DNA from: Polyangiaceae bacterium
GTDB taxonomy: Bacteria > Myxococcota > Polyangia > Polyangiales > Polyangiaceae
Assembly (NCBI GenBank): GCA_025936205.1
Contig: JAICTU010000313.1
Coordinates: forward strand, 1-10,971
Reading direction: 5' to 3'
Length of the DNA: 10,971 nucleotides
Shown: positions 2 through 10,971 of the stretch, one piece after another
Position numbering within the stretch: position 1 is the stretch's first letter
Layout: each line of letters starts with the position of its first letter
The notes under the pieces: model-generated
Databases searched by the model: none
The model's input: only the letters and a program-made list of their open reading frames with translations
Told to the model about the DNA's origin: nothing
Program-made: the position numbers and the translations under genes

Positions 2-1033
2 AAGCGGCGCCGGCGCAGCCTGCTGCGCAGGTCGAGCATCGCTGTTGCGGTCGCCGCGGGTGTCTTCGGCATCGTCCTCTCGCTCTGGATGCACGATCGC
101 TCGGCTGCTCCGCTCGCAGCACGGCAGGTCTCCAGCCACGATACTTCCGGCGAGCAGAGCGCCCCGAGCCACGCGGTCCTGCTGAATGACAGCGTCGGCG
201 ATGTGCGCGTGGTCGACGCGCACGGCAGCTTGCTCCGCGACCCATCGGGCCTGGCCGAGGGCTACGGCGTCCGCACCGGCGAAGGCAGCGCCTCGCTCGG
301 CTTTTCGAGCGGCGCTCTGGCGCGCGTGGCGCGGGGCAGTGCCCTGACGCTGACGGCCACCGAGCGCACGGAATCGTTGCTCTTGACGCGCGGTCGCGTG
401 GACGTGGAAGTGCCGAAGCTCGACCGCGAGCGCGGCTTCTCGGTGGAGACGCCGGACGCGAAGGTCGTCGTGCACGGCACCGGCTTCAGCGTGAGCGTCG
501 CTCCAGAGAACGAGCGCGAAATTCGCACCGCGGTGAGCGTCACGCACGGCGTGGTGTCGGGGCAGCACCAGGGCCGCGAGGTCCGCCTCAGCGCCGGGCA
601 GCACTGGCCGGACGACTTCGAGGCGCCGGCCGCGGCGGATGCCGGCGATGAGAGCCTCGAGCGCGACGTCGAGACGAGCAAGGAATCCGTGCGCGAGAAG
701 CCTCGCGGCAAGCACGCCGGCAAGGCGACCCGCAGCCGGCGAGCGCCGAGCGCGCGCGAGTCGCGCGAGCTCGCCGAGCAGAACGGACACTTCGCGCGCG
801 CCATGCTGCTGAAAAACCAGGGCCAGGCGCAGGACGCGCTGAGCGAGCTCACGCACCTGCTGCGGAGCCACCCGGCGTCTCCGCTCCGTCAGGAGGCGCG
901 CGTGGAGCGCCTCCGGATCTTGCGCAGCCTCGGGCGCAGGGACGAGGCACGCCGCGAAGCCAGCCGCTATCTGAGCGACTTCCCCGACGGGTACGCGGCT
1001 CAGGAGGCGCGCGAGCTGCTCGAGGAGCCATGA
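2..1033 (+). CDS. Membrane-anchored FecR-domain protein with TPR-like C-terminus (5' end outside window)
   Basis: The reading frame is open from base 2, so the gene starts upstream; the ATG at 89 lies after the membrane helix and is unlikely to be the start. Visible residues 1-11 are Arg-rich (KRRRRSLLRR), and residues 12-30 form one hydrophobic helix, giving an N-in, C-out topology. A FecR-like domain follows at about residues 59-204, with GYGVRT, LGFSSGA, the core ETPDAKVVVHGTGF and a closing LSAGQHWP. A charged linker leads to helical TPR-like repeats at about 259-341. FecR proteins relay envelope signals to ECF sigma factors, and TPRs bind proteins. The FecR part aligns along its length with that of the gene at 5348-6793, which is preceded by a similar Arg-rich membrane helix. 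The missing N-terminus could therefore be a sigma domain or an anti-sigma domain. The stop overlaps the next start (ATGA), so the two genes are translationally coupled. Domain calls are fairly sure; function is inferred. Confidence 0.85.
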   Translation, partial: KRRRRSLLRRSSIAVAVAAGVFGIVLSLWMHDRSAAPLAARQVSSHDTSGEQSAPSHAVLLNDSVGDVRVVDAHGSLLRDPSGLAEGYGVRTGEGSASLGFSSGALARVARGSALTLTATERTESLLLTRGRVDVEVPKLDRERGFSVETPDAKVVVHGTGFSVSVAPENEREIRTAVSVTHGVVSGQHQGREVRLSAGQHWPDDFEAPAAADAGDESLERDVETSKESVREKPRGKHAGKATRSRRAPSARESRELAEQNGHFARAMLLKNQGQAQDALSELTHLLRSHPASPLRQEARVERLRILRSLGRRDEARREASRYLSDFPDGYAAQEARELLEEP

Positions 1034-1761
1034 GAGCGTCGCTCTTCGTGTGTGCGTGCGGGCTGCTCGCCTGCGAGGCGCAGCAAGTGCGCCTCTTCCC
1101 CGTGCTGGGCGCGACCCCCGACTCCGGTGTTCCCGGGCCCGCCCAGCCCGCCCAGCCCGACGCCAGCGTGGCGCCGCCTCCCGCGCCCCCAGCGCCGGAA
1201 CAACCGGCATGTCGTTCGCTCGAGTGCTCGAGCTGCGCAGCCGAGCCCTCGGCGTGTATCGTTGCGGGCACGCCCTGGCTGTGTCATCCGTGGACGGGCA
1301 GTTGTTCCCTGCCGTGTGCTCCCGAGAGCGCCAGCTCGCAGTGTCCGCGCGAGCAGCGCTGCCACCCCGACTATGGCCTGTGCGTGGAGTGCGTGGGCGT
1401 TGCCGACTGCGCCGGGGCCACACCCGCCTGCGACCCTCAGCGAAACGTCTGCGTCGAGTGCACGGGCGACGCGAACTGCAGCGCGCCCACGCCGGCGTGT
1501 GACACCAGCGCGCAGCGCTGCGTCCCGTGCACCCGGCGCGAGCACTGCGCTGCCGGGCAGGTCTGCGACCCGGCGCAGCACACCTGTGTGCAGTGCGTGT
1601 CGAGCGCGGACTGCGCGAACCTGGGGGGTGACAATGACCGAAACGTATGCGACCCCGCCAACCACGTCTGCGTCGAGTGCTTGACCAACGCCGATTGCAA
1701 GGAGCCTGACAAGCCCTTCTGCAAGGCGAGTGAGCTCGAGTGCGACGACGACAGCGACTGA
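1030..1761 (+). CDS. Cys-rich repeat lipoprotein
   Basis: This 243-aa protein has a short lipoprotein signal (MRASLFVCACGLLAC, lipobox Cys15), so it is probably lipidated and exported. Residues about 28-58 are a Pro/Ala-rich spacer. From about residue 61 the protein is packed with cysteines. Residues 118-238 form five tandem units of 22-28 residues of the form CVxC...ADC...C, beginning at Cys118, 141, 164, 186 and 214. Such modules are probably disulphide-bonded outside the cytoplasm. Similar Cys-rich lipoproteins are frequent in myxobacteria and rarely have known functions. The tail is acidic (DDDSD). The start overlaps the stop of the FecR-TPR gene, which suggests one operon and perhaps a role as an envelope partner of that protein (inference). 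No enzymatic motif is seen. Confidence 0.85.
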   Translation: MRASLFVCACGLLACEAQQVRLFPVLGATPDSGVPGPAQPAQPDASVAPPPAPPAPEQPACRSLECSSCAAEPSACIVAGTPWLCHPWTGSCSLPCAPESASSQCPREQRCHPDYGLCVECVGVADCAGATPACDPQRNVCVECTGDANCSAPTPACDTSAQRCVPCTRREHCAAGQVCDPAQHTCVQCVSSADCANLGGDNDRNVCDPANHVCVECLTNADCKEPDKPFCKASELECDDDSD

Positions 1762-2436: not shown

Positions 2437-3249
2437 TTGAAAAAGTGCATGCGAAGTTCAGCATTGATCGCGAGCGAGTGGCTGAAGATCAGCGGAGTGG
2501 TGTTCACCATGGGCGCCCTGGCCATGGCCTGCAGCGCGGGCGCGGGTGGTGGTGAGGAGTCGACGCCCACTCCATCGCCGAGCAACACGAACACATCGAC
2601 GCGACCCGCGAACAGTTCTGCTCAAAGCTCGAGCAACACCGGTACGCCGGCCGCCTCGAGCAACGGCACGAGCAGCAGCGCGAACGGCGGAGCCACGACT
2701 GCTCCGGCGGCGGCGCCTCCGCCGAGCGCCGCGCCCGCCGCGCCTGCTCCCAGCGACAACGTCATCGATGAAGACGACGTCCTGTTGAACCCGCCGAGCA
2801 GTGGCGAAAGCCCGCGGGGCAATCAAGCGGCCGACGAGGACGACGATGACGATGATGACGACGACGACCGCGACGATGATGACGACGACGACGATGACGG
2901 CAACCAGGCCGGCGGCAACCAGGCCGGCGGCAACCAGGCCGGCGGCAACCAGGCCGGCGGCAACCAGGGCCAGAATCAGAACAATGTCACCTTCGCAACC
3001 ATCTATCCGATCCTGGTGACCAACTGCTCGCGCTGTCACGCCAACGGTGGCCTGCCGCAGCTCGCCAACGCCAACATCGAGACCGCGTTCAACGCCGCCC
3101 GCCGCGAAGCGCGCGACATCGTCGAGTTGATCCAAGACGGCGAGATGCCGGCCGATACCTGCAATGGGCCGCCCGGCAGCAACGGTTGCGTCTCCAGCGC
3201 CGACTTTGCCCTGATCCGGCAGTGGGTCAACGGGGGCACCTTGCGCTGA
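2437..3249 (+). CDS. c-type cytochrome-like lipoprotein with Asp run and NQAGG repeats
   Basis: This 270-aa exported protein starts at a TTG that is placed 6 bases after GAGG (2427-2430); an in-frame ATG at 2449 lacks good spacing. The signal region ends in ALAMAC, with putative lipid Cys32. Residues about 35-130 are Ser/Thr/Pro/Ala-rich, a likely flexible stalk. Residues 133-154 are almost all acidic (20 Asp and one Glu in 22). Four NQAGG pentapeptides follow, then NQGQNQNN. The C-terminal 85 residues form a mono-haem c-type domain: IYPIL, the haem motif C197-S-R-C200-H201, Met237 in DGEMP as a possible axial ligand, and a closing IRQWVNGGTLR. Domains of this kind are found in cell-surface redox proteins. 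The likely role is electron transfer or haem binding on the periplasmic or outer surface. The Asp run may bind cations (speculation). It could also be a degenerate haem domain with a structural role. Confidence 0.85.
   Translation: MKKCMRSSALIASEWLKISGVVFTMGALAMACSAGAGGGEESTPTPSPSNTNTSTRPANSSAQSSSNTGTPAASSNGTSSSANGGATTAPAAAPPPSAAPAAPAPSDNVIDEDDVLLNPPSSGESPRGNQAADEDDDDDDDDDDRDDDDDDDDDGNQAGGNQAGGNQAGGNQAGGNQGQNQNNVTFATIYPILVTNCSRCHANGGLPQLANANIETAFNAARREARDIVELIQDGEMPADTCNGPPGSNGCVSSADFALIRQWVNGGTLR
2899..2967 (+). repeat. 15-bp tandem repeat encoding NQAGG
   Basis: Four exact copies of GGCAACCAGGCCGGC (2899-2958) are followed by a partial copy (2959-2967), inside the cytochrome-like lipoprotein gene. 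The unit is a multiple of three, so copy-number change by replication slippage would lengthen or shorten the linker without breaking the frame. The copies are identical at the DNA level, which points to recent expansion or homogenisation. Confidence 0.95.
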
Positions 3250-3351: not shown

Positions 3352-4869
3352 CTACTTCGACGGCGACGGCGCGCTCCCGCGCGCATGGAACGGCGCATCG
3401 AGCGCACGACGAGCGTCGCCCGTCAGCGTCCCCGTGCGCGCGCTCTCTCGAACTTCCGCGAAGCTGGAGCGAATGGACCTCGTCTGGCTCTGCACCCGCT
3501 GTTCGAACTCGGCCTGCCGCAGCGCGCGCTGCGCTTGCTCGAGCTGCGCCTCGCGTTGCGCCTGCCGCTCCGCTTCCATCACGCCGCCGCTGCCGTCGGC
3601 CTCGATCAGCTGCCCGCTCTCCAAATCCGGCTCGAGCGCGCCGACGGGCTTGCCTGCGCGCAGCAGCCCGCGCCCATCGGGCAGCACGATCCACGTGCCC
3701 GACTCGCCACCGTAGCGCACGGTCACACCGAGGCTGCGCTGGAGCAACTCATCGGTGAGCTGGTCGAGAGCGGACGGGTGCTTCCCATGGGCGATGTCGT
3801 ACAGGAGGGTGCCTCGCGCGTAGTCCCCCAGCGAACGATCGCCCAGGTATTCCACCAGGATTTCCGCATCCGCGTGGCCCTCGGCAAAATGGCGCAGCCA
3901 AGGCACTTGGCGGGCGCGGGTGAGCAGTGAGTCTGCATCCCGCAGAAACGGCTCGAAGCTCCGCAGCTGCTGCTGCGTCGAGAGGCACAAGGAGAAGCCG
4001 AACGGCTCGCTCCCCGGCGCGAAGAGCTTGCCACACCAGACGCCATCTCCGTACCGGGTGTTGAGGCGATAGCGCCTCGAGACGCTGCTCTCCTCGATGC
4101 GAAAACGCTGGCGCAGCCGCTCGAGAGCCGCGCCATGCCGCTCCGCCGCCTCTTCAGCGCCGATCTCATCTTCAAACAACTCGCGGCCATACCGGGCAAT
4201 GCTCCCCGTCAAGTGCTTGCCCAGAACACGGTCCCGATTGAGAAACGCCTCGGGCAGGAGCGCCGAGACGGCCGCGCTGATGCTCGGGTTCCAGGTCGTG
4301 CCGAAGCCCTTCACAGACCACGGCAACATGAGCTGCGCCCGGCTCGTCGAGCTGAGCTCGAGGGTGGCCCCGCTTGCCCACAGCATCTCGATGTGAAGAC
4401 CGGGGTAATCGTCGAGCACCTTTGTGGCCTGCAAGCGCTTCAGCACCTGTTGCAGGTTCTCGCGTTGCAGAACCCGTTCGGCGAAGTGCTGCGCCGTGTG
4501 CGGTGAGAGACCGTCCTTTTCAGCTTCGGCGCGCACGTTGCCGATCAAGGGTCGAAGGCGCTCCGCATTCAGCTCTGGTTCGAGCGGTGCCGAGGCGGCG
4601 CGCAGCAAGGCTTCGATCAACGCCGCGTCGATCCGGCGTTCGCCGGCCTTGAACCCCTGCCAGGTCTGCTCGATGTCGAGGGTTTGTTCGGTGCCCCGCC
4701 GGGCTGCCTGCACGGAGCGAATCGAGATGTGCTCGGGCAGCCCCTCGGGCAGGCGCGCGCGGGGTTGCGCCGCCTGTTCCCACTGCGGCTGCGGAGCCGC
4801 TCGCTGCGTGACGTCGCTGCAGGCCAAGGCCAGAGCGAGCGCGAGCAGGTGCCGCAACTGCCTGAACAT
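3352..4869 (-). CDS. Lipoprotein of unknown function
   Basis: The frame is open to 5172, but the ATG at 4869 is chosen because it directly begins a lipoprotein signal, MFRQLRHLLALALALAC (putative lipid Cys17). The 101 codons upstream look like random Arg/Ala-rich readthrough. The result is a 505-aa exported protein of unrecognised family. The body is mostly helical and well-ordered in composition, with a conserved-looking central block (LNTRYGDGVWCGKLF, then a second Cys in FSLCLST). These are two of the few Cys after the signal and may form a disulphide. A segment with WIVLPDGRGLLRAGKPVGAL leads to a Gln/Glu/Ala/Arg heptad-like coiled coil at roughly residues 435-475. The start has no strong Shine-Dalgarno sequence. 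It is divergent from the sigma-FecR fusion and convergent with the cytochrome-like gene. It could be a target or partner of the neighbouring signalling gene, but nothing in the sequence proves this. Confidence 0.75.
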   Translation of the reverse strand: MFRQLRHLLALALALACSDVTQRAAPQPQWEQAAQPRARLPEGLPEHISIRSVQAARRGTEQTLDIEQTWQGFKAGERRIDAALIEALLRAASAPLEPELNAERLRPLIGNVRAEAEKDGLSPHTAQHFAERVLQRENLQQVLKRLQATKVLDDYPGLHIEMLWASGATLELSSTSRAQLMLPWSVKGFGTTWNPSISAAVSALLPEAFLNRDRVLGKHLTGSIARYGRELFEDEIGAEEAAERHGAALERLRQRFRIEESSVSRRYRLNTRYGDGVWCGKLFAPGSEPFGFSLCLSTQQQLRSFEPFLRDADSLLTRARQVPWLRHFAEGHADAEILVEYLGDRSLGDYARGTLLYDIAHGKHPSALDQLTDELLQRSLGVTVRYGGESGTWIVLPDGRGLLRAGKPVGALEPDLESGQLIEADGSGGVMEAERQAQREAQLEQAQRALRQAEFEQRVQSQTRSIRSSFAEVRESARTGTLTGDARRALDAPFHARGSAPSPSK

Positions 4870-4974
4870 CGTCGCCCGCAACGCTTCCGCATGCCAGCTA
4901 CCAGCGCGTCCGTCCGACACCGTCGGTCCGTCGCTCGCTCCAGTTGCGCCCATTGCTGGACGCTCTGCGAAAGA

Positions 4975-5005
4975 GCGGGGGTCGCGAGGATCAGCGATTC
5001 CCCGC
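4975..5005. promoter_or_regulatory. Long hairpin in divergent region
   Basis: GCGGGG (4975-4980) pairs with CCCCGC (5000-5005). Inside that, TCGC (4982-4985) pairs with GCGA (4994-4997). Together they give about 10 bp with a small internal loop and an 8-base terminal loop. It would fall in the 5' leader of the minus-strand lipoprotein mRNA if transcription starts upstream of about 5010. It could be a structured leader or an operator; no function is shown. Confidence 0.3.
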
Positions 5006-5047
5006 GGCGGTGACTCGCGCACGCCCAGCGCATGCGTGTGGATGACG

Positions 5048-5075
5048 ATGCCCCCCGGACGCCCATCGGGGGCAT
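5048..5075. promoter_or_regulatory. ATGCCCCC/GGGGGCAT inverted repeat
   Basis: A perfect 8-bp inverted repeat with a 12-base spacer lies in the divergent region. The spacing (arm centres about 20 bases apart, close to two helical turns) would suit a dimeric DNA-binding protein; equally it may fold as an RNA hairpin. No regulator is identified. Confidence 0.3.
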
Positions 5076-5334
5076 TCGGCCGCGCCGCTGTGTCGGCCCG
5101 GAACAGCCCGGAATGGCGTGCTTTTCGTCTCGCTCCGCTGCAACAGAGCTCTGCGATGAAAACACGTTCCACCCGCGCCAGTTTTGTTTGGCGATCTCGT
5201 CGACGCTAACGGCAGTGTACGCCGAGGTGCGCTACGACATGCGCATCGGACGAGCTCGGCAGCGATGGTACCGGTCAGAAGTCTGAGGTTCAGGAGCGCC
5301 AGGGTCGGCTGTTCGGTCCCGGGTGCTTGCTGGC

Positions 5335-5340
5335 AGGAGG
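5335..5340 (+). promoter_or_regulatory. Shine-Dalgarno AGGAGG fixing the start of the sigma-FecR gene
   Basis: A perfect AGGAGG lies 7 bases before the ATG at 5348. The in-frame TTG at 5327 lies upstream of this site, so it cannot be served by it. The ATG at 5348 is therefore the likely start. Confidence 0.8.
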
Positions 5341-5347
5341 AGCGCGG

Positions 5348-6793
5348 ATGGCAGAGCCGCTAGCGCCGCGTCCGCGGCCTCAGTTGCGCCTGCTCACGGG
5401 CGGCGCGCCCGCCACGGATTCGAACTACAGCGATCCGGAGCTGTTCGACGGCATCGTGCGCGGTGACGAGCGTGTCGCCTCCGCGCTGTATCGCCGGCTG
5501 CTGCCGGAGGTCGAGCGCGCGCTGAGCGGTGTGCTGGAGCGCCGCGATGGCAAGCAAGACGAGCTGGTGCGGGAGAGCTTCGAGCGCATGATCGTGATCG
5601 TCTCGCGCCGCCGCTACGCCGAGGCTTGCAATCTCGAGAGCTGGGCGGGCGCCGTCGCCGCGCAGGTGGCGCTCGCCCGATTGCGCGCGCGCCTGCGCCG
5701 CAACACGCAGCCGGTAGCGCTCGTGGCTCCCGGCGTGGGGCGCTCGGGCGTGGTGCCCTCCGGCTCGGAGCGCGGGGCCGCTCAGCGCCGCGCGCTCGAA
5801 TGGTTGCGGGTGAGCGTCGCACGGCTCGCCCCGGCGCGCGCGGAGGTCGTGGTGTTGCACGATCTGATGCGCCATCCACTGGCGGAGATCGCGACCCTGA
5901 TGCGGCTCTCCGTCGCGGCAACCCAGTCGCGCCTGGTGCGCGCGCACAAGGATCTGACGCTGGCCTGGCTGGAGCAGGGCTCGCTGGCGGAGAGCAAAGC
6001 CGGGAGTGAAGGCGAGAGCTCGAGCAAGCCTGCCCCGCTGCCCGATCTCGAAGAGCTGTTCTCGGTCTGGCGCGGGCAGTTCCGCGAGCGGGCGCGCTCT
6101 TCCAGCATCGCGCCTGGCGGCAGCCGCGTGCTCGTGCGCGCGCTGCGCCTGGTTGCGCGCCGGCGCCGGCGCATCCAGCAGTTGAGCACGGCGGCGCTCG
6201 GCGCGGCCGCGATCCTGACCGCGCTCGGCGTGGGCTTCGGCATCTGGTTCGCGCAGCGGCGGCTGAGTGGCGATGCCGAGCGTCCACGCGCCGAGTCGCG
6301 GGTGTTGCTCGGCGCCGTGCAGGGCGAGGTCTCCGTGAGCGATCGCCAGGGCCACGCGGCGGGCGGCTATGCCTCGCTCTCCGAAGGCTATGGCCTGCGC
6401 ACCGACGAAGGCACGGCGCGCCTCGGCTTCTCCAGCGGCGCTGCCGTCAGCGTCTCCGACCACAGCCGCCTCGCCATCCTGTCGACACAGGAAACGGAGG
6501 TCTTCTTCCTCGGCACCGGGCGCGTCGAGGTCGACTTGCCGGATCTCGCGCTGGGCGGCAGCTTCGCCATCGAGACGCCGGACACCCATTTGACCTCGCA
6601 CGCCGCGCGCTTTCTGATCTCGGTGGATCCGATCGGGAATACATCCACGCACGTCGAGGTGCGCTCCGGCAGCGTCTCGGTCCGCTATGCCGGTCATGAC
6701 CTCGAGCTCAGGGCCGGGCAGTCCTGGCCTTCGCCGATCTCGACGGTAGACAGCGATTCAGAAGGCCCGATTCAGAAGGAGACCGAGCAGTAG
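5348..6793 (+). CDS. ECF-type sigma factor fused to a transmembrane FecR-like domain
   Basis: One 481-aa chain combines parts that are usually separate proteins. Residues about 30-118 look like sigma region 2: DPELFDGIVRGDE, then DELVRESFERM, which corresponds to the usual 'EDLVQETF', then LARLRARLRR. Residues about 150-205 look like region 4 with the helix-turn-helix: LAPARAEVVVLHDL, HPLAEIATLMRLSVAATQSR, LVRAHKDL. A 65-75 residue linker follows, then RRRRR and one membrane helix (about 278-302), then a FecR-like domain (about 318-463) ending RAGQSWP. The sigma part would be cytoplasmic and the FecR part periplasmic. In classical systems FecI sigma and FecR are distinct; a sigma/anti-sigma hybrid (IutY) is known in Pseudomonas putida. 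By analogy the sigma half might be freed by proteolysis (inference). The FecR core lacks the usual G-T (ARF where the paralogue has GTGF). No TonB receptor is seen nearby. The domain order is well supported; activity is not. Confidence 0.88.
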   Translation: MAEPLAPRPRPQLRLLTGGAPATDSNYSDPELFDGIVRGDERVASALYRRLLPEVERALSGVLERRDGKQDELVRESFERMIVIVSRRRYAEACNLESWAGAVAAQVALARLRARLRRNTQPVALVAPGVGRSGVVPSGSERGAAQRRALEWLRVSVARLAPARAEVVVLHDLMRHPLAEIATLMRLSVAATQSRLVRAHKDLTLAWLEQGSLAESKAGSEGESSSKPAPLPDLEELFSVWRGQFRERARSSSIAPGGSRVLVRALRLVARRRRRIQQLSTAALGAAAILTALGVGFGIWFAQRRLSGDAERPRAESRVLLGAVQGEVSVSDRQGHAAGGYASLSEGYGLRTDEGTARLGFSSGAAVSVSDHSRLAILSTQETEVFFLGTGRVEVDLPDLALGGSFAIETPDTHLTSHAARFLISVDPIGNTSTHVEVRSGSVSVRYAGHDLELRAGQSWPSPISTVDSDSEGPIQKETEQ

Positions 6794-6863: not shown

Positions 6864-7520
6864 TTGTCGGTCTTGCTTCAGTTCTTCGACGTCCTGCGCC
6901 ACCTCGACCAGCACCTGGCAGAGTGGTCTCAGCAGCTCGGCGGCTGGCTCTACCTGGCCCTGTTCGCGATCATCTTCGCCGAGACGGGGCTGGTGGTGAC
7001 GCCGTTCTTGCCGGGCGACTCGCTGTTGTTCGCGGTGGGCGCGCTGTGCGCCGTACAGGGCTCTGCGCTCAACGTCGCCGTCATCGTTCCGCTGTTGCTC
7101 GTCGCAGCGGTGCTGGGCGACGCCGTCAATTACGCGATCGGGCGCACTCTCGGGCCCAAGGTGTTCACGACGGAAAGCTCGCGCTTCTTGAACAAGAAGC
7201 ACCTGCTGCGCACGCAGGAGTTCTACGAGCGCTACGGCGGCAAGACGATCATCATCGCGCGCTTCGTGCCGATCGTGCGCACCTTCGCGCCATTCGTGGC
7301 CGGCATCGGGCAGATGCGTTATCGGCGCTTTCTCGCGTTCAATCTGGTTGGAGCGCTGTTGTGGGTGGGCTTGATCGTGCCGATCGGCTACGCCGTCGGC
7401 AACAACCCCCTGATCAAGAAGAACTTCTCGATTGTGGTCTTTCTGATCATCGGCATCAGCGTGCTGCCGGCCGCGATCGAGCTGCTGCGCGAACGCAAGG
7501 CGCGCCGCGTCGCAGCCTGA
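6864..7520 (+). CDS. DedA-family (VTT domain) membrane protein
   Basis: This 218-aa inner-membrane protein begins at a TTG, set by a perfect GGAGGAG (6851-6857) with 6 bases of spacing. Family hallmarks are visible. The first is FAETGLVVTPFLPGDSLLF at about residues 37-55, whose acidic E and PGD motif are typical. The second is the region IIIARFVPIVRTFAPFVAGI at about 132-151, with its Arg residues and the re-entrant AG segment. These are followed by hydrophobic helices and a basic C-terminus. Length fits the family (about 200-220 aa). DedA/DUF368-type proteins act in proton-dependent membrane homeostasis and, as shown for some members, in undecaprenyl-phosphate or phospholipid scrambling. 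The gene starts 70 bases after the sigma-FecR fusion, with no terminator-like U-run between them, so co-transcription is possible. The specific lipid substrate cannot be read from sequence. Confidence 0.93.
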   Translation: MSVLLQFFDVLRHLDQHLAEWSQQLGGWLYLALFAIIFAETGLVVTPFLPGDSLLFAVGALCAVQGSALNVAVIVPLLLVAAVLGDAVNYAIGRTLGPKVFTTESSRFLNKKHLLRTQEFYERYGGKTIIIARFVPIVRTFAPFVAGIGQMRYRRFLAFNLVGALLWVGLIVPIGYAVGNNPLIKKNFSIVVFLIIGISVLPAAIELLRERKARRVAA

Positions 7521-7696
7521 GGGGCGCCGAGGGCTCGAGCGCGCGCCTGTCTCCCTGGCAAAGACCCGGGGAGGCCTGACAGAATGGCAGGCGAGCGCGC
7601 CGATCCCAGGCGTGGTCGAAGGCCAAATTTACCGGCATTTTTGCGGTTTCGGCCCCTTGTGGGCGCATGGCACGTGGCTTGCTCCAAGGTCTGCGC

Positions 7697-8356
7697 ATGT
7701 CCGCGAGCCTTGCTTCCAGCCTGCGTGCCGACTTCGAACCGCGCTCTTCCGTCTATTCGCGCCCGCGCCTCGCGCTGGTCCCGCCAGCGCCCGCGCTGCT
7801 GACGCAGGCGGAGCCTGCACGGGAACAGACCACAGCTGACGCGTGCGCGAAGCGCGCGCCCACACAGGGCGAGCTGGTCGCGCTGATGCCGGGTCTGCGC
7901 CGGCGTGCGCTGCGCTGGTGCCGCGACGCCGCACGCGCCGACGACCTGGTGCAGGAGACGCTGCTGCGCGCCTGCCGCCACGGCGACAAGTTCGAGAATG
8001 AAGGCCACCTGCAGGCGTGGGCGCACACCGTGCTGCACAACCTGCTCGTCTCGCGCGGCCGCCGCGATCGCAGCGCGCGGCGCGCCCTGGGCGTGCTGGG
8101 CGCCACGCTGGCCGAGGGCGTCACGGGCTGGAGCGCGCCGGCGCCCTCCTTCTTGCTGCCCAGCCTGGAGCGCGCGCTCGACAGCTTGCCGGAGCCGTTC
8201 AGCAGCACGCTGCGCCTCGTCGATCTCGAAGAGCACAGCTACGCCGAGGCGGCGGTCTTGCTGGGCGTGCCCGTTGGTACGGTGATGAGCCGCCTGTTCC
8301 GCGGACGCCGGCGCCTGGCGCAGGCGCTGGTCGCGGCCGAAGGCGCCGGCGCCTGA
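7697..8356 (+). CDS. Stand-alone ECF-type RNA polymerase sigma factor
   Basis: This 219-aa protein directs RNA polymerase to a specific promoter set. Its first 55 residues are a Pro/Ala-rich extension unrelated to the sigma fold. Region 2 covers about 60-125: ADDLVQETLLRACR, the typical core-binding helix, then LQAWAHTVLHNLLVSRGRR. Region 4 covers about 155-210: LDSLPEPFSSTLRLVDLEEH, then YAEAAVLLGVPVGTVMSRLF, with the helix-turn-helix GVPVGTVMSRL. The ATG at 7697 has AAGG 7 bases upstream (7686-7689). An in-frame ATG at 7667 is possible but has no good ribosome site. No zinc-finger or other anti-sigma gene is adjacent, so control may be by transcription, by the N-terminal extension, or by a distant partner. 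A more AT-rich patch precedes it (about 7620-7650), perhaps holding the promoter. Confidence 0.92.
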   Translation: MSASLASSLRADFEPRSSVYSRPRLALVPPAPALLTQAEPAREQTTADACAKRAPTQGELVALMPGLRRRALRWCRDAARADDLVQETLLRACRHGDKFENEGHLQAWAHTVLHNLLVSRGRRDRSARRALGVLGATLAEGVTGWSAPAPSFLLPSLERALDSLPEPFSSTLRLVDLEEHSYAEAAVLLGVPVGTVMSRLFRGRRRLAQALVAAEGAGA

Positions 8357-10263: not shown

Positions 10264-10288
10264 GCCCCGCCGTTCAGGCTTGCGGGGC
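10264..10288 (+). terminator. Hairpin after the AI-2E-family gene, probable terminator
   Basis: A perfect 7-bp stem GCCCCGC/GCGGGGC with an 11-base loop starts three bases after the stop codon and extends by two more pairs beyond a T-T mismatch. The position directly behind the gene suits a terminator, though no T-run follows. Confidence 0.4.
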
Positions 10289-10315
10289 TGCGGCGCCTGG
10301 GACCAGACTCAAACG

Positions 10316-10777
10316 ATGCGGCGGCCTGTACTGCTCCTGCGCAGCGTGAAGCTGTCCTGCCTGCTCGTCCCCGCGGGAGGGCTGGCAGCCGGCGGCTTCT
10401 TCGCCTGCGGCAACAGCGACGACCCGGCCGCTCCGACCACGGCGGCGTGCCCGATCCTCTCGTACGACTGTCCCGCGGAGCTGCCGAGCTACGCCAACGT
10501 GGTGGGGCCGCTCTTCGACGCGCACTGCAATCAGTGTCACAACGGCGCGGAACCGACCGGGCCCTGGCCGCTGAAGAATCCGATCGACATCGGGGACTGG
10601 TCGCTCTCGATCAAGGCCGACCTCGAGGACTGCCTGATGCCGCCGCCGGACAGCAAGGCGCCGCTCAGCGACGCCGATCGCCAGACGATGCACGACTGGC
10701 TCTCGTGCGGCGCGCCACTAGGCTTCCGACCGTGGTCGACGCGGACCACCCAGTCGCCCCCGCACCCTGGAGGTCCG
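10316..10777 (+). CDS. c-type cytochrome-like lipoprotein, no stop before pyc
   Basis: From the ATG at 10316 the frame encodes a hydrophobic signal region ending in GGFFAC (putative lipid Cys31). A short spacer follows, then a mono-haem c-type domain: GPLFDAHC, the haem motif C71-N-Q-C74-H75, LEDCLMPPP with Met108 as a possible axial ligand, and [18 protein letters not shown]. Homologous domains usually end within a few residues of 'W...CGAP', but here the frame has no stop and continues for about 20 residues into the pyruvate carboxylase start at 10778. A TAG does occur at 10719-10721, right after the CGAP codons, in the +1 frame. The end given here is the base before the pyc ATG and is a convention. 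Domain type matches that of the gene at 2437-3249. The ribosome site is weak. The gene was found by translating the frame by hand. Confidence 0.75.
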
Positions 10778-10971
10778 ATGTTCCGCAAGGTTCTCGTCGC
10801 CAACCGAGGCGAGATCGCCGTCCGAGCCTTCCGGGCCGCGACGGAGCTCGGCGCCCGCACGGTCGCCGTCTTCCCGTACGAGGACCGCAAGAGCGAGCAC
10901 CGCCTCAAGGCGGACGAGGCCTACCAGATCGGCGAGGAGGGGCATCCCGTCCGCGCCTACCTCGACCACGA
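10778..10971 (+). CDS. pyc: Pyruvate carboxylase, N-terminal part (runs off right edge)
   Basis: The first 64 residues are visible: [18 protein letters not shown], then [16 protein letters not shown], then [21 protein letters not shown]. This is the start of the biotin carboxylase domain, and the tyrosine-rich PYED and GHPVRAYL variants fit pyruvate carboxylase better than acetyl-CoA carboxylase AccC. The enzyme makes oxaloacetate from pyruvate, bicarbonate and ATP, feeding the TCA cycle and gluconeogenesis in the cytoplasm. GGAGG (10769-10773), four bases before the ATG, supports an independent start. The frame upstream is nevertheless open and continuous with the cytochrome-like lipoprotein. 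The other domains (carboxyltransferase, biotin carrier) lie outside the window. Confidence 0.9.

Follow-up and report, generated by a model that had tools for sequence, protein, structure and literature searches.

The subject of this work is a stretch of 10,971 nucleotides from a Polyangiaceae bacterium (contig JAICTU010000313.1 of assembly GCA_025936205.1; hereafter the window), in which a single open frame at positions 5348-6793 encodes a chain of 481 residues that holds sigma, membrane and sensor parts together. We propose, at about even confidence, that this protein is a transcription regulator derived from an extracytoplasmic function (ECF) sigma factor and permanently anchored in the inner membrane through a FecR-type sensor carried on the same chain. 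The sigma regions, the membrane helix and the FecR-like domain had been recognised in the one frame by an initial annotation, and they prove to be conserved as a family (coordinates in Table 1). Structure prediction, which that annotation had proposed as a check on the N-terminal part, yielded sigma 2 and sigma 4 folds with a short linker between them, as is typical of ECF sigma factors. The periplasmic part contains a CJM-type beta domain as in FecR, and the order of sigma domains, single transmembrane (TM) helix and FecR-type periplasmic domain on one chain is that of IutY.

The fused family is real as a lineage and not an assembly error. A phmmer search returned 24 proteins including the window's own entry (P0002), of which 18 others cover both the sigma and the FecR part (45-93% identical to the window's protein); the N-terminus is complete in 15 of these. 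Five matches are fragments. Two further fragments came from a profile search, and three of the seven (P0025, P0028 and P0029) have no sigma part. Since 18 further homologues span both parts, since all 19 fused proteins form one clade in three quick trees (Shimodaira-Hasegawa-like approximate likelihood ratio test values of 99, 99 and 98) and since the neighbouring genes are syntenic, we regard the fusion as a genuine family. The stop or frameshift between the two parts that the initial annotation had allowed for was not found: an assembly artefact or frameshift is ruled out by the 18 additional spanning homologues and by the homologue in a Polyangiaceae metagenome-assembled genome (MAG G001, a draft genome; fused locus L001), which contains no internal stop. 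Among 183 genomes of the order of this MAG, 58 gave a match at E 1e-15 (at most eight candidates scored per genome), and both parts without a stop occurred only in G001, the remaining rows holding one part alone or being interrupted by a stop; among 377 genomes sampled from the phylum, ten matched at E 1e-35 (at most four candidates per genome), and again only G001 had both parts in one frame. A PDB sequence search with the fusion gave no match at E 0.1. A viral origin was rejected on the strength of one tblastn scan of viral_contigs, which found no relative of the fusion.

The fusion is best read as one event from a sigma/FecR gene pair that is common in Polyangiales. At other loci the homologous parts sit in two genes, and in 27 of 31 Polyangiales loci the two share 4 bases, the FecR start lying within the sigma stop (-7 or -10 in the other four). 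For this count the start codon closest to the sigma stop, at most 15 bases away, was assigned to FecR, which biases the count toward the 4-base overlap. The split set comprises 35 sigmas, 31 of them with a FecR match behind. It was drawn from the first 43 loci by leaving out L001, being itself fused, and its copy L003, further L004, L008, L009 and L010 (copies of L002, L006, L005 and L002, respectively), as well as L011 and L012, which have weak sigma matches and no FecR match within the stretch; of the sigmas retained, L017 and L035 end at contig edges, and at L033 and L043 no FecR match was seen. Both domains of these pairs are homologous to those of the fusion and group with them in trees. 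Unlike the fusion the pairs occupy two genes, keep the Gly-Thr dyad described below and have FecR proteins that extend 96-176 residues past the matched domain (32 of 32 pairs). Tetratricopeptide repeats (TPR) were found in both split FecR proteins tested, the one at window positions 2-1033 and the copy in G001, and TPR families in none of the 19 fused proteins.

In the sigma and FecR trees the rows nearest to the fused clade are the split pair of G001 (support 92 and 85), together, in the FecR tree, with the window's own 2-1033 protein. In a sigma tree enlarged by 24 of the 120 split-type proteins listed among 488 matches, the fused clade (98) joins ten split rows including P0112 (98, midpoint root), and the G001 split sigma stands outside that group. 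On these trees a split pair is well supported as the parent of the fusion, but which pair appears nearest depends on the rows used. We infer that the fused form, rather than the split one, is derived, because the split form is far more widespread and because of the trees, weakly rooted as they are. Window positions 2-1761, which the initial annotation of the fusion does not mention, represent the tail of such a split module, kin to the module on contig C259 of G001 (39% and 35%), to which an open reading frame (ORF) at 2437-3249 is also related (70% over 80 residues). P0112, a split-type sigma of 223 residues with a related N-terminal tail, is probably the sigma that this module lacks, lying just beyond the window's edge, because its longest contig matches that of P0002 in size (17,729 bases). 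In 12 of the 32 split pairs the most Cys-rich ORF at the FecR stop has at least 9% Cys, and several of these ORFs look lipoprotein-like by eye; the count took the ORF with most Cys near that stop and is biased upward. Such Cys-rich ORFs behind Polyangiales split pairs (L002, L062-L092) may represent a surface sensor in a signalling module that does not involve TonB.

The sensor of the fused clade is altered at a site that its split relatives retain. Gly181-Thr182 is the reported self-cleavage site of Escherichia coli FecR (PMC9249621, PMC8144685), and Gly191-Thr192 that of FoxR (PMC11637429). The FecR column aligns with Ala419-Ala420 of the window protein. Gly-Thr stands there in 31 of 31 aligned split partners and, by motif, in 32 of 32 pairs (an overlapping set), and in none of the 26 members of the fused family, where the column reads AA (16), NA (2) or AG (1) in the 19 spanning proteins and AA (6) or KA (1) in the seven fragments. 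With the dyad gone, the sensor should stay one chain until a signal arrives, unlike FecR and FoxR. Also gone from the fused clade is the long split-type C-terminal tail, some members having a different, low-complexity tail. In the alignments the fused copies are changed at two sites, one in the sensor and one in the part that should grip RNA polymerase (see below), and both sites are unchanged in all unfused relatives examined.

The part order shared with IutY raises the alternative of a TonB-type cell-surface-signalling hybrid whose transducer gene lies elsewhere, and G001 does contain 23 TonB-barrel matches and one STN match, all on contigs other than that of the fusion. We nevertheless consider this very improbable. 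PupR binds its transducer only when CJM and STN are both present (PMC7186176), and the PupR CJM domain (111-237, boundaries from the same paper) aligns to residues 345-462 of the window protein, after which 19 residues remain, modelled with a predicted local distance difference test score (pLDDT) below 60. STN families matched none of the 19 fused members at E 0.001, neither STN nor TonB matches were found on the G001 contigs that carry the fusion (C384) and the split paralogue (C259), and no TonB receptor was seen among the 10 window ORFs scanned. Since the chain ends ahead of this subdomain, signalling by way of a TonB transducer is unlikely. The interpretation in the initial annotation is thus supported in part, namely for the single-chain architecture and for the lack of a TonB receptor nearby.

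Ratios of nonsynonymous to synonymous substitution rates (dN/dS) against L001 are 0.47 for sigma 2, 0.38 for sigma 4, 0.65 for the cytoplasmic segment and 0.26 for the FecR part, and from these values the four parts look to be under selection; the linkers exceed 1 on 13 and 20 codons only, too few to interpret. Trp241, Gly258-Ser259-Arg260 and Arg271-Arg272 of the cytoplasmic segment do not vary among the 19 rows. Residues 1-19 are modelled with a pLDDT of about 52 and yet are the best conserved part: over 15 rows they average 92% identity to the window protein, and the two most divergent members, which elsewhere reach about 50% or less, still share 79%. Compared with L001, eight of the first 16 codons of this tail differ synonymously and one alters the residue, so that the constraint lies on the protein level and a DNA element is ruled out. 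A motif LR(L/V/A/P)(V/L/I) occurs near the start of 87 of the 120 listed split-type sigmas, and MAEPLAPR in none of them. In the structure model of the whole protein (pLDDT 83.8) the sigma part superposes across both domains at 4.5-5.0 Å on SigW and CnrH in their anti-sigma-bound forms, whereas for those RNA-polymerase-bound ECF sigmas that were aligned across both domains the fit is no better than about 26-27 Å.

A number of findings weigh against our proposal, several of them on the sigma part. The region-2.2 Asp and Gln, which we take to be important for core binding, are present in 35 of 35 split rows and in all 120 split-type sigmas listed of 488 matches (119 fit the pattern; the last has Phe second), the Asp also in FecI and in the window's second ECF sigma. 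In the fused proteins the Asp is replaced in 19 of 19, by Glu (16) or Ala (3), and the Gln is kept in 14, the other five, which make up the window's subclade, having Arg instead (Gln75 in the window protein's numbering). A number of residues in region 2.2 have been linked to core binding (PMC4383634). Pfam Sigma70_r2 scores 17.5 bits in the window protein, under the cut-off of 24, and at E<=0.001 Pfam region 2 is found in just 8 of 19 fused as opposed to 35 of 35 split sigmas; region 4 is recognised in all 19. Against profiles built from split sequences, the fused proteins reach 91-112 bits over sigma 2 (left-out split sequences 89-155, median 142) and 52-81 bits over sigma 4 (82-119, median 108), and because all 19 fused scores for sigma 4 fall under the split range, this domain too, by its profile scores, is drifted. 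The orthodox sigma activity of the fusion is thus uncertain, as is, with the Asp lost throughout and the Gln lost in the subclade, its binding to RNA polymerase. The plain term sigma factor used in the initial annotation is weakened by these changes. The closed shape of the sigma part is weak evidence for autoinhibition, since it comes from a single-chain model and since SigG1 and SigJ, which are free sigmas, match it too (3.8 and 6.3 Å); moreover, for the anti-sigma complexes sigmaE/RseA and AlgU/MucA a good alignment is limited to sigma 2, and segment 231-274, for all its invariant Trp241, matches no known anti-sigma domain family. Synteny was read in a single other genome. As for the dyad, the Gly/Thr pair of FoxR has been termed non-conserved (PMC7186176), the self-cleavage fragment of FecR is described as not essential, with mention of cells lacking the Gly-Thr sequence (PMC9249621), and the role of the dyad may be structural.

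These findings give some room to the view that the sigma part is degenerate, no longer a subunit of RNA polymerase, and serves as a membrane-tethered helix-turn-helix (HTH) regulator or as a decoy for the anti-sigma or the promoter sites of the split system. We regard this as possible rather than probable. The uneven recognition of regions 4 and 2, the changed region-2.2 residues, scores under the split medians in both domains and the long stem branches of the fused clade would all accord with it, and the predicted folds of both sigma domains accord with a sigma factor. Because region 2.2 is changed there is likewise room for a non-orthodox sigma-derived regulator, and we tentatively envisage a single-chain, membrane-tethered one whose contact with RNA polymerase is rebuilt and whose sensor has given up self-cleavage, and which evolved beside the split parental-type module in the same genome.

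How might a sigma-derived regulator held at the membrane by its own sensor work? The fusion would have arisen through duplication and joining of an ATGA-coupled split sigma/FecR pair. Helix 234-251, on the cytoplasmic side next to the membrane, would keep sigma domains 2 and 4 closed in cis, and the sensor, lacking Gly-Thr, would remain uncut until a periplasmic or envelope signal acts on the CJM-like beta domain. Cleavage outside the membrane and then, by a site-2 protease, within it would set free a soluble fragment of about residues 1-280, which would activate a small regulon, perhaps including the adjoining dedA. An alternative is that the tethered factor acts, or is switched, by a conformational change at the membrane without any cleavage; in its favour are the missing self-cleavage dyad and the linkers from sigma 4 to the membrane, which in some members are long and variable and could allow DNA contact, but site-2 protease candidates are present, though near-universal, and we know of no membrane-bound sigma that works on promoters. 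We consider action in the tethered state improbable. Release by proteolysis is likely by analogy with IutY, the model for such release, which is cleaved by Prc and RseP (PMC5411451, PMC8999054 section 3.5.3). The five M50 site-2 protease matches in G001 carry little weight, because an M50 control search was positive in 14 of 14 genomes.

The fusion shares its principle with IutY of Pseudomonas putida (ECF243), which likewise has sigma domains, one membrane helix and a FecR-type periplasmic part on one chain, but it is not a TonB cell-surface-signalling protein. IutY has 374 residues and a partner TonB transducer, IutA, whereas the longer window protein has no STN and no linked TonB receptor; its sigma, unlike that of IutY, is related to those Polyangiales sigmas that have FecR/TPR proteins as partners. 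With FecI/FecR of E. coli and FoxR of P. aeruginosa the fusion has the CJM-type sensor domain in common, yet these systems have a separate sigma and regulator, a self-cleaved sensor, STN and a TonB transducer (PMC8144685, PMC11637429, PMC7186176). In ECF48, ECF52 and ECF53 of Actinobacteria (e.g. SCO4117) a sigma is joined to a membrane-spanning regulatory extension, and proteolysis is predicted to release it (PMC8999054 section 3.5.3). A zinc-finger domain is present in these proteins, whereas the window protein has a FecR-type sensor and one Cys among its 481 residues, the zinc-binding anti-sigma motif of ECF52 type being absent. The same section of that review names IutY, ECF48/52/53 and some ECF36 as ECF sigmas with regulatory extensions that are activated by proteolysis. 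IutY has been termed a unique cell-surface-signalling protein (PMC7593790) and, in the review, which dates from 2022, the only ECF sigma with characterised activation by proteolysis of its own extension (PMC8999054). Titles and abstract beginnings from searches of one open-licence library name no myxobacterial sigma-FecR fusion, although one may still be in print. Sigma/anti-sigma hybrids are few and this one looks like an independent origin in Myxococcota, with the split parental-type system in the same genome (in full in G001, its 3' part in the window). It raises the questions of how fusion affects the one-to-one partnership of sigma and anti-sigma, whether FecR-type sensors still require Gly-Thr self-cleavage when they are on the same chain as the sigma, and whether the core-binding motif of sigma region 2 is free to change in a protein held at the membrane.

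Table 1. Features of the fused gene and its surroundings (window positions).
Feature	Position	Strand	Basis
Fused sigma-TM-FecR gene, 481 aa	5348..6793	+	homologues and structure model
Shine-Dalgarno AGGAGG, 7 bases 5' of ATG	5335..5340	+	read from sequence
N-terminal tail MAEPLAPRPRPQLRLLTGG, residues 1-19	5348..5404	+	model, alignment of 15 rows
Sigma domain 2, residues 27-118	5426..5701	+	structure model and structural alignment
Region 2.2 positions Glu72, Arg75	5561..5572	+	alignment with split relatives
Sigma domain 4 with HTH, residues 139-218	5762..6001	+	family match and model
Cytoplasmic anti-sigma-like segment, residues 231-274	6038..6169	+	alignment of 19 rows, model
One membrane helix, about residues 279-301	6182..6250	+	model
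Periplasmic FecR/PupR CJM-like beta domain, residues 319-462	6302..6733	+	structure comparison
Ala419-Ala420 at the FecR Gly-Thr self-cleavage dyad column	6602..6607	+	alignment to E. coli FecR
DedA/VTT membrane protein, starts 70 bp past the fusion stop	6864..7520	+	family match, synteny with L001 (81%)
Ordinary second ECF sigma, directly after dedA	7667..8356	+	family match, synteny kept in L001 (64%)
Split-type FecR/TPR paralogue, truncated 5' at the window edge, Gly-Thr kept	2..1033	+	family match, trees
Cys-rich lipoprotein-like gene, 4-base overlap with FecR/TPR gene	1030..1761	+	sequence, comparison with G001

The five genes that follow the fusion keep their order in L001, the second ECF sigma being followed by YjbR (80% identity), an AI-2E-type transporter (87%) and a lipoprotein-like frame with CxxCH seen by eye (38%). 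The first gene, dedA, is an obvious candidate for an output of the fusion, perhaps co-transcribed with it. By sequence comparison, the Shine-Dalgarno sequence of the fused gene is not kept at L001. Upstream of the fusion a large ORF on the minus strand (3352-5172) matches neither Pfam nor NCBIfam families, and tblastn found nothing similar to it in L001. At the far end of the window, a frame with a CNQCH motif (10280-10969) runs stop-free into a biotin carboxylase N-terminus; L001 matches only its residues 20-146, and the frame likely reflects a sequencing slip or two separate genes, not a fusion.
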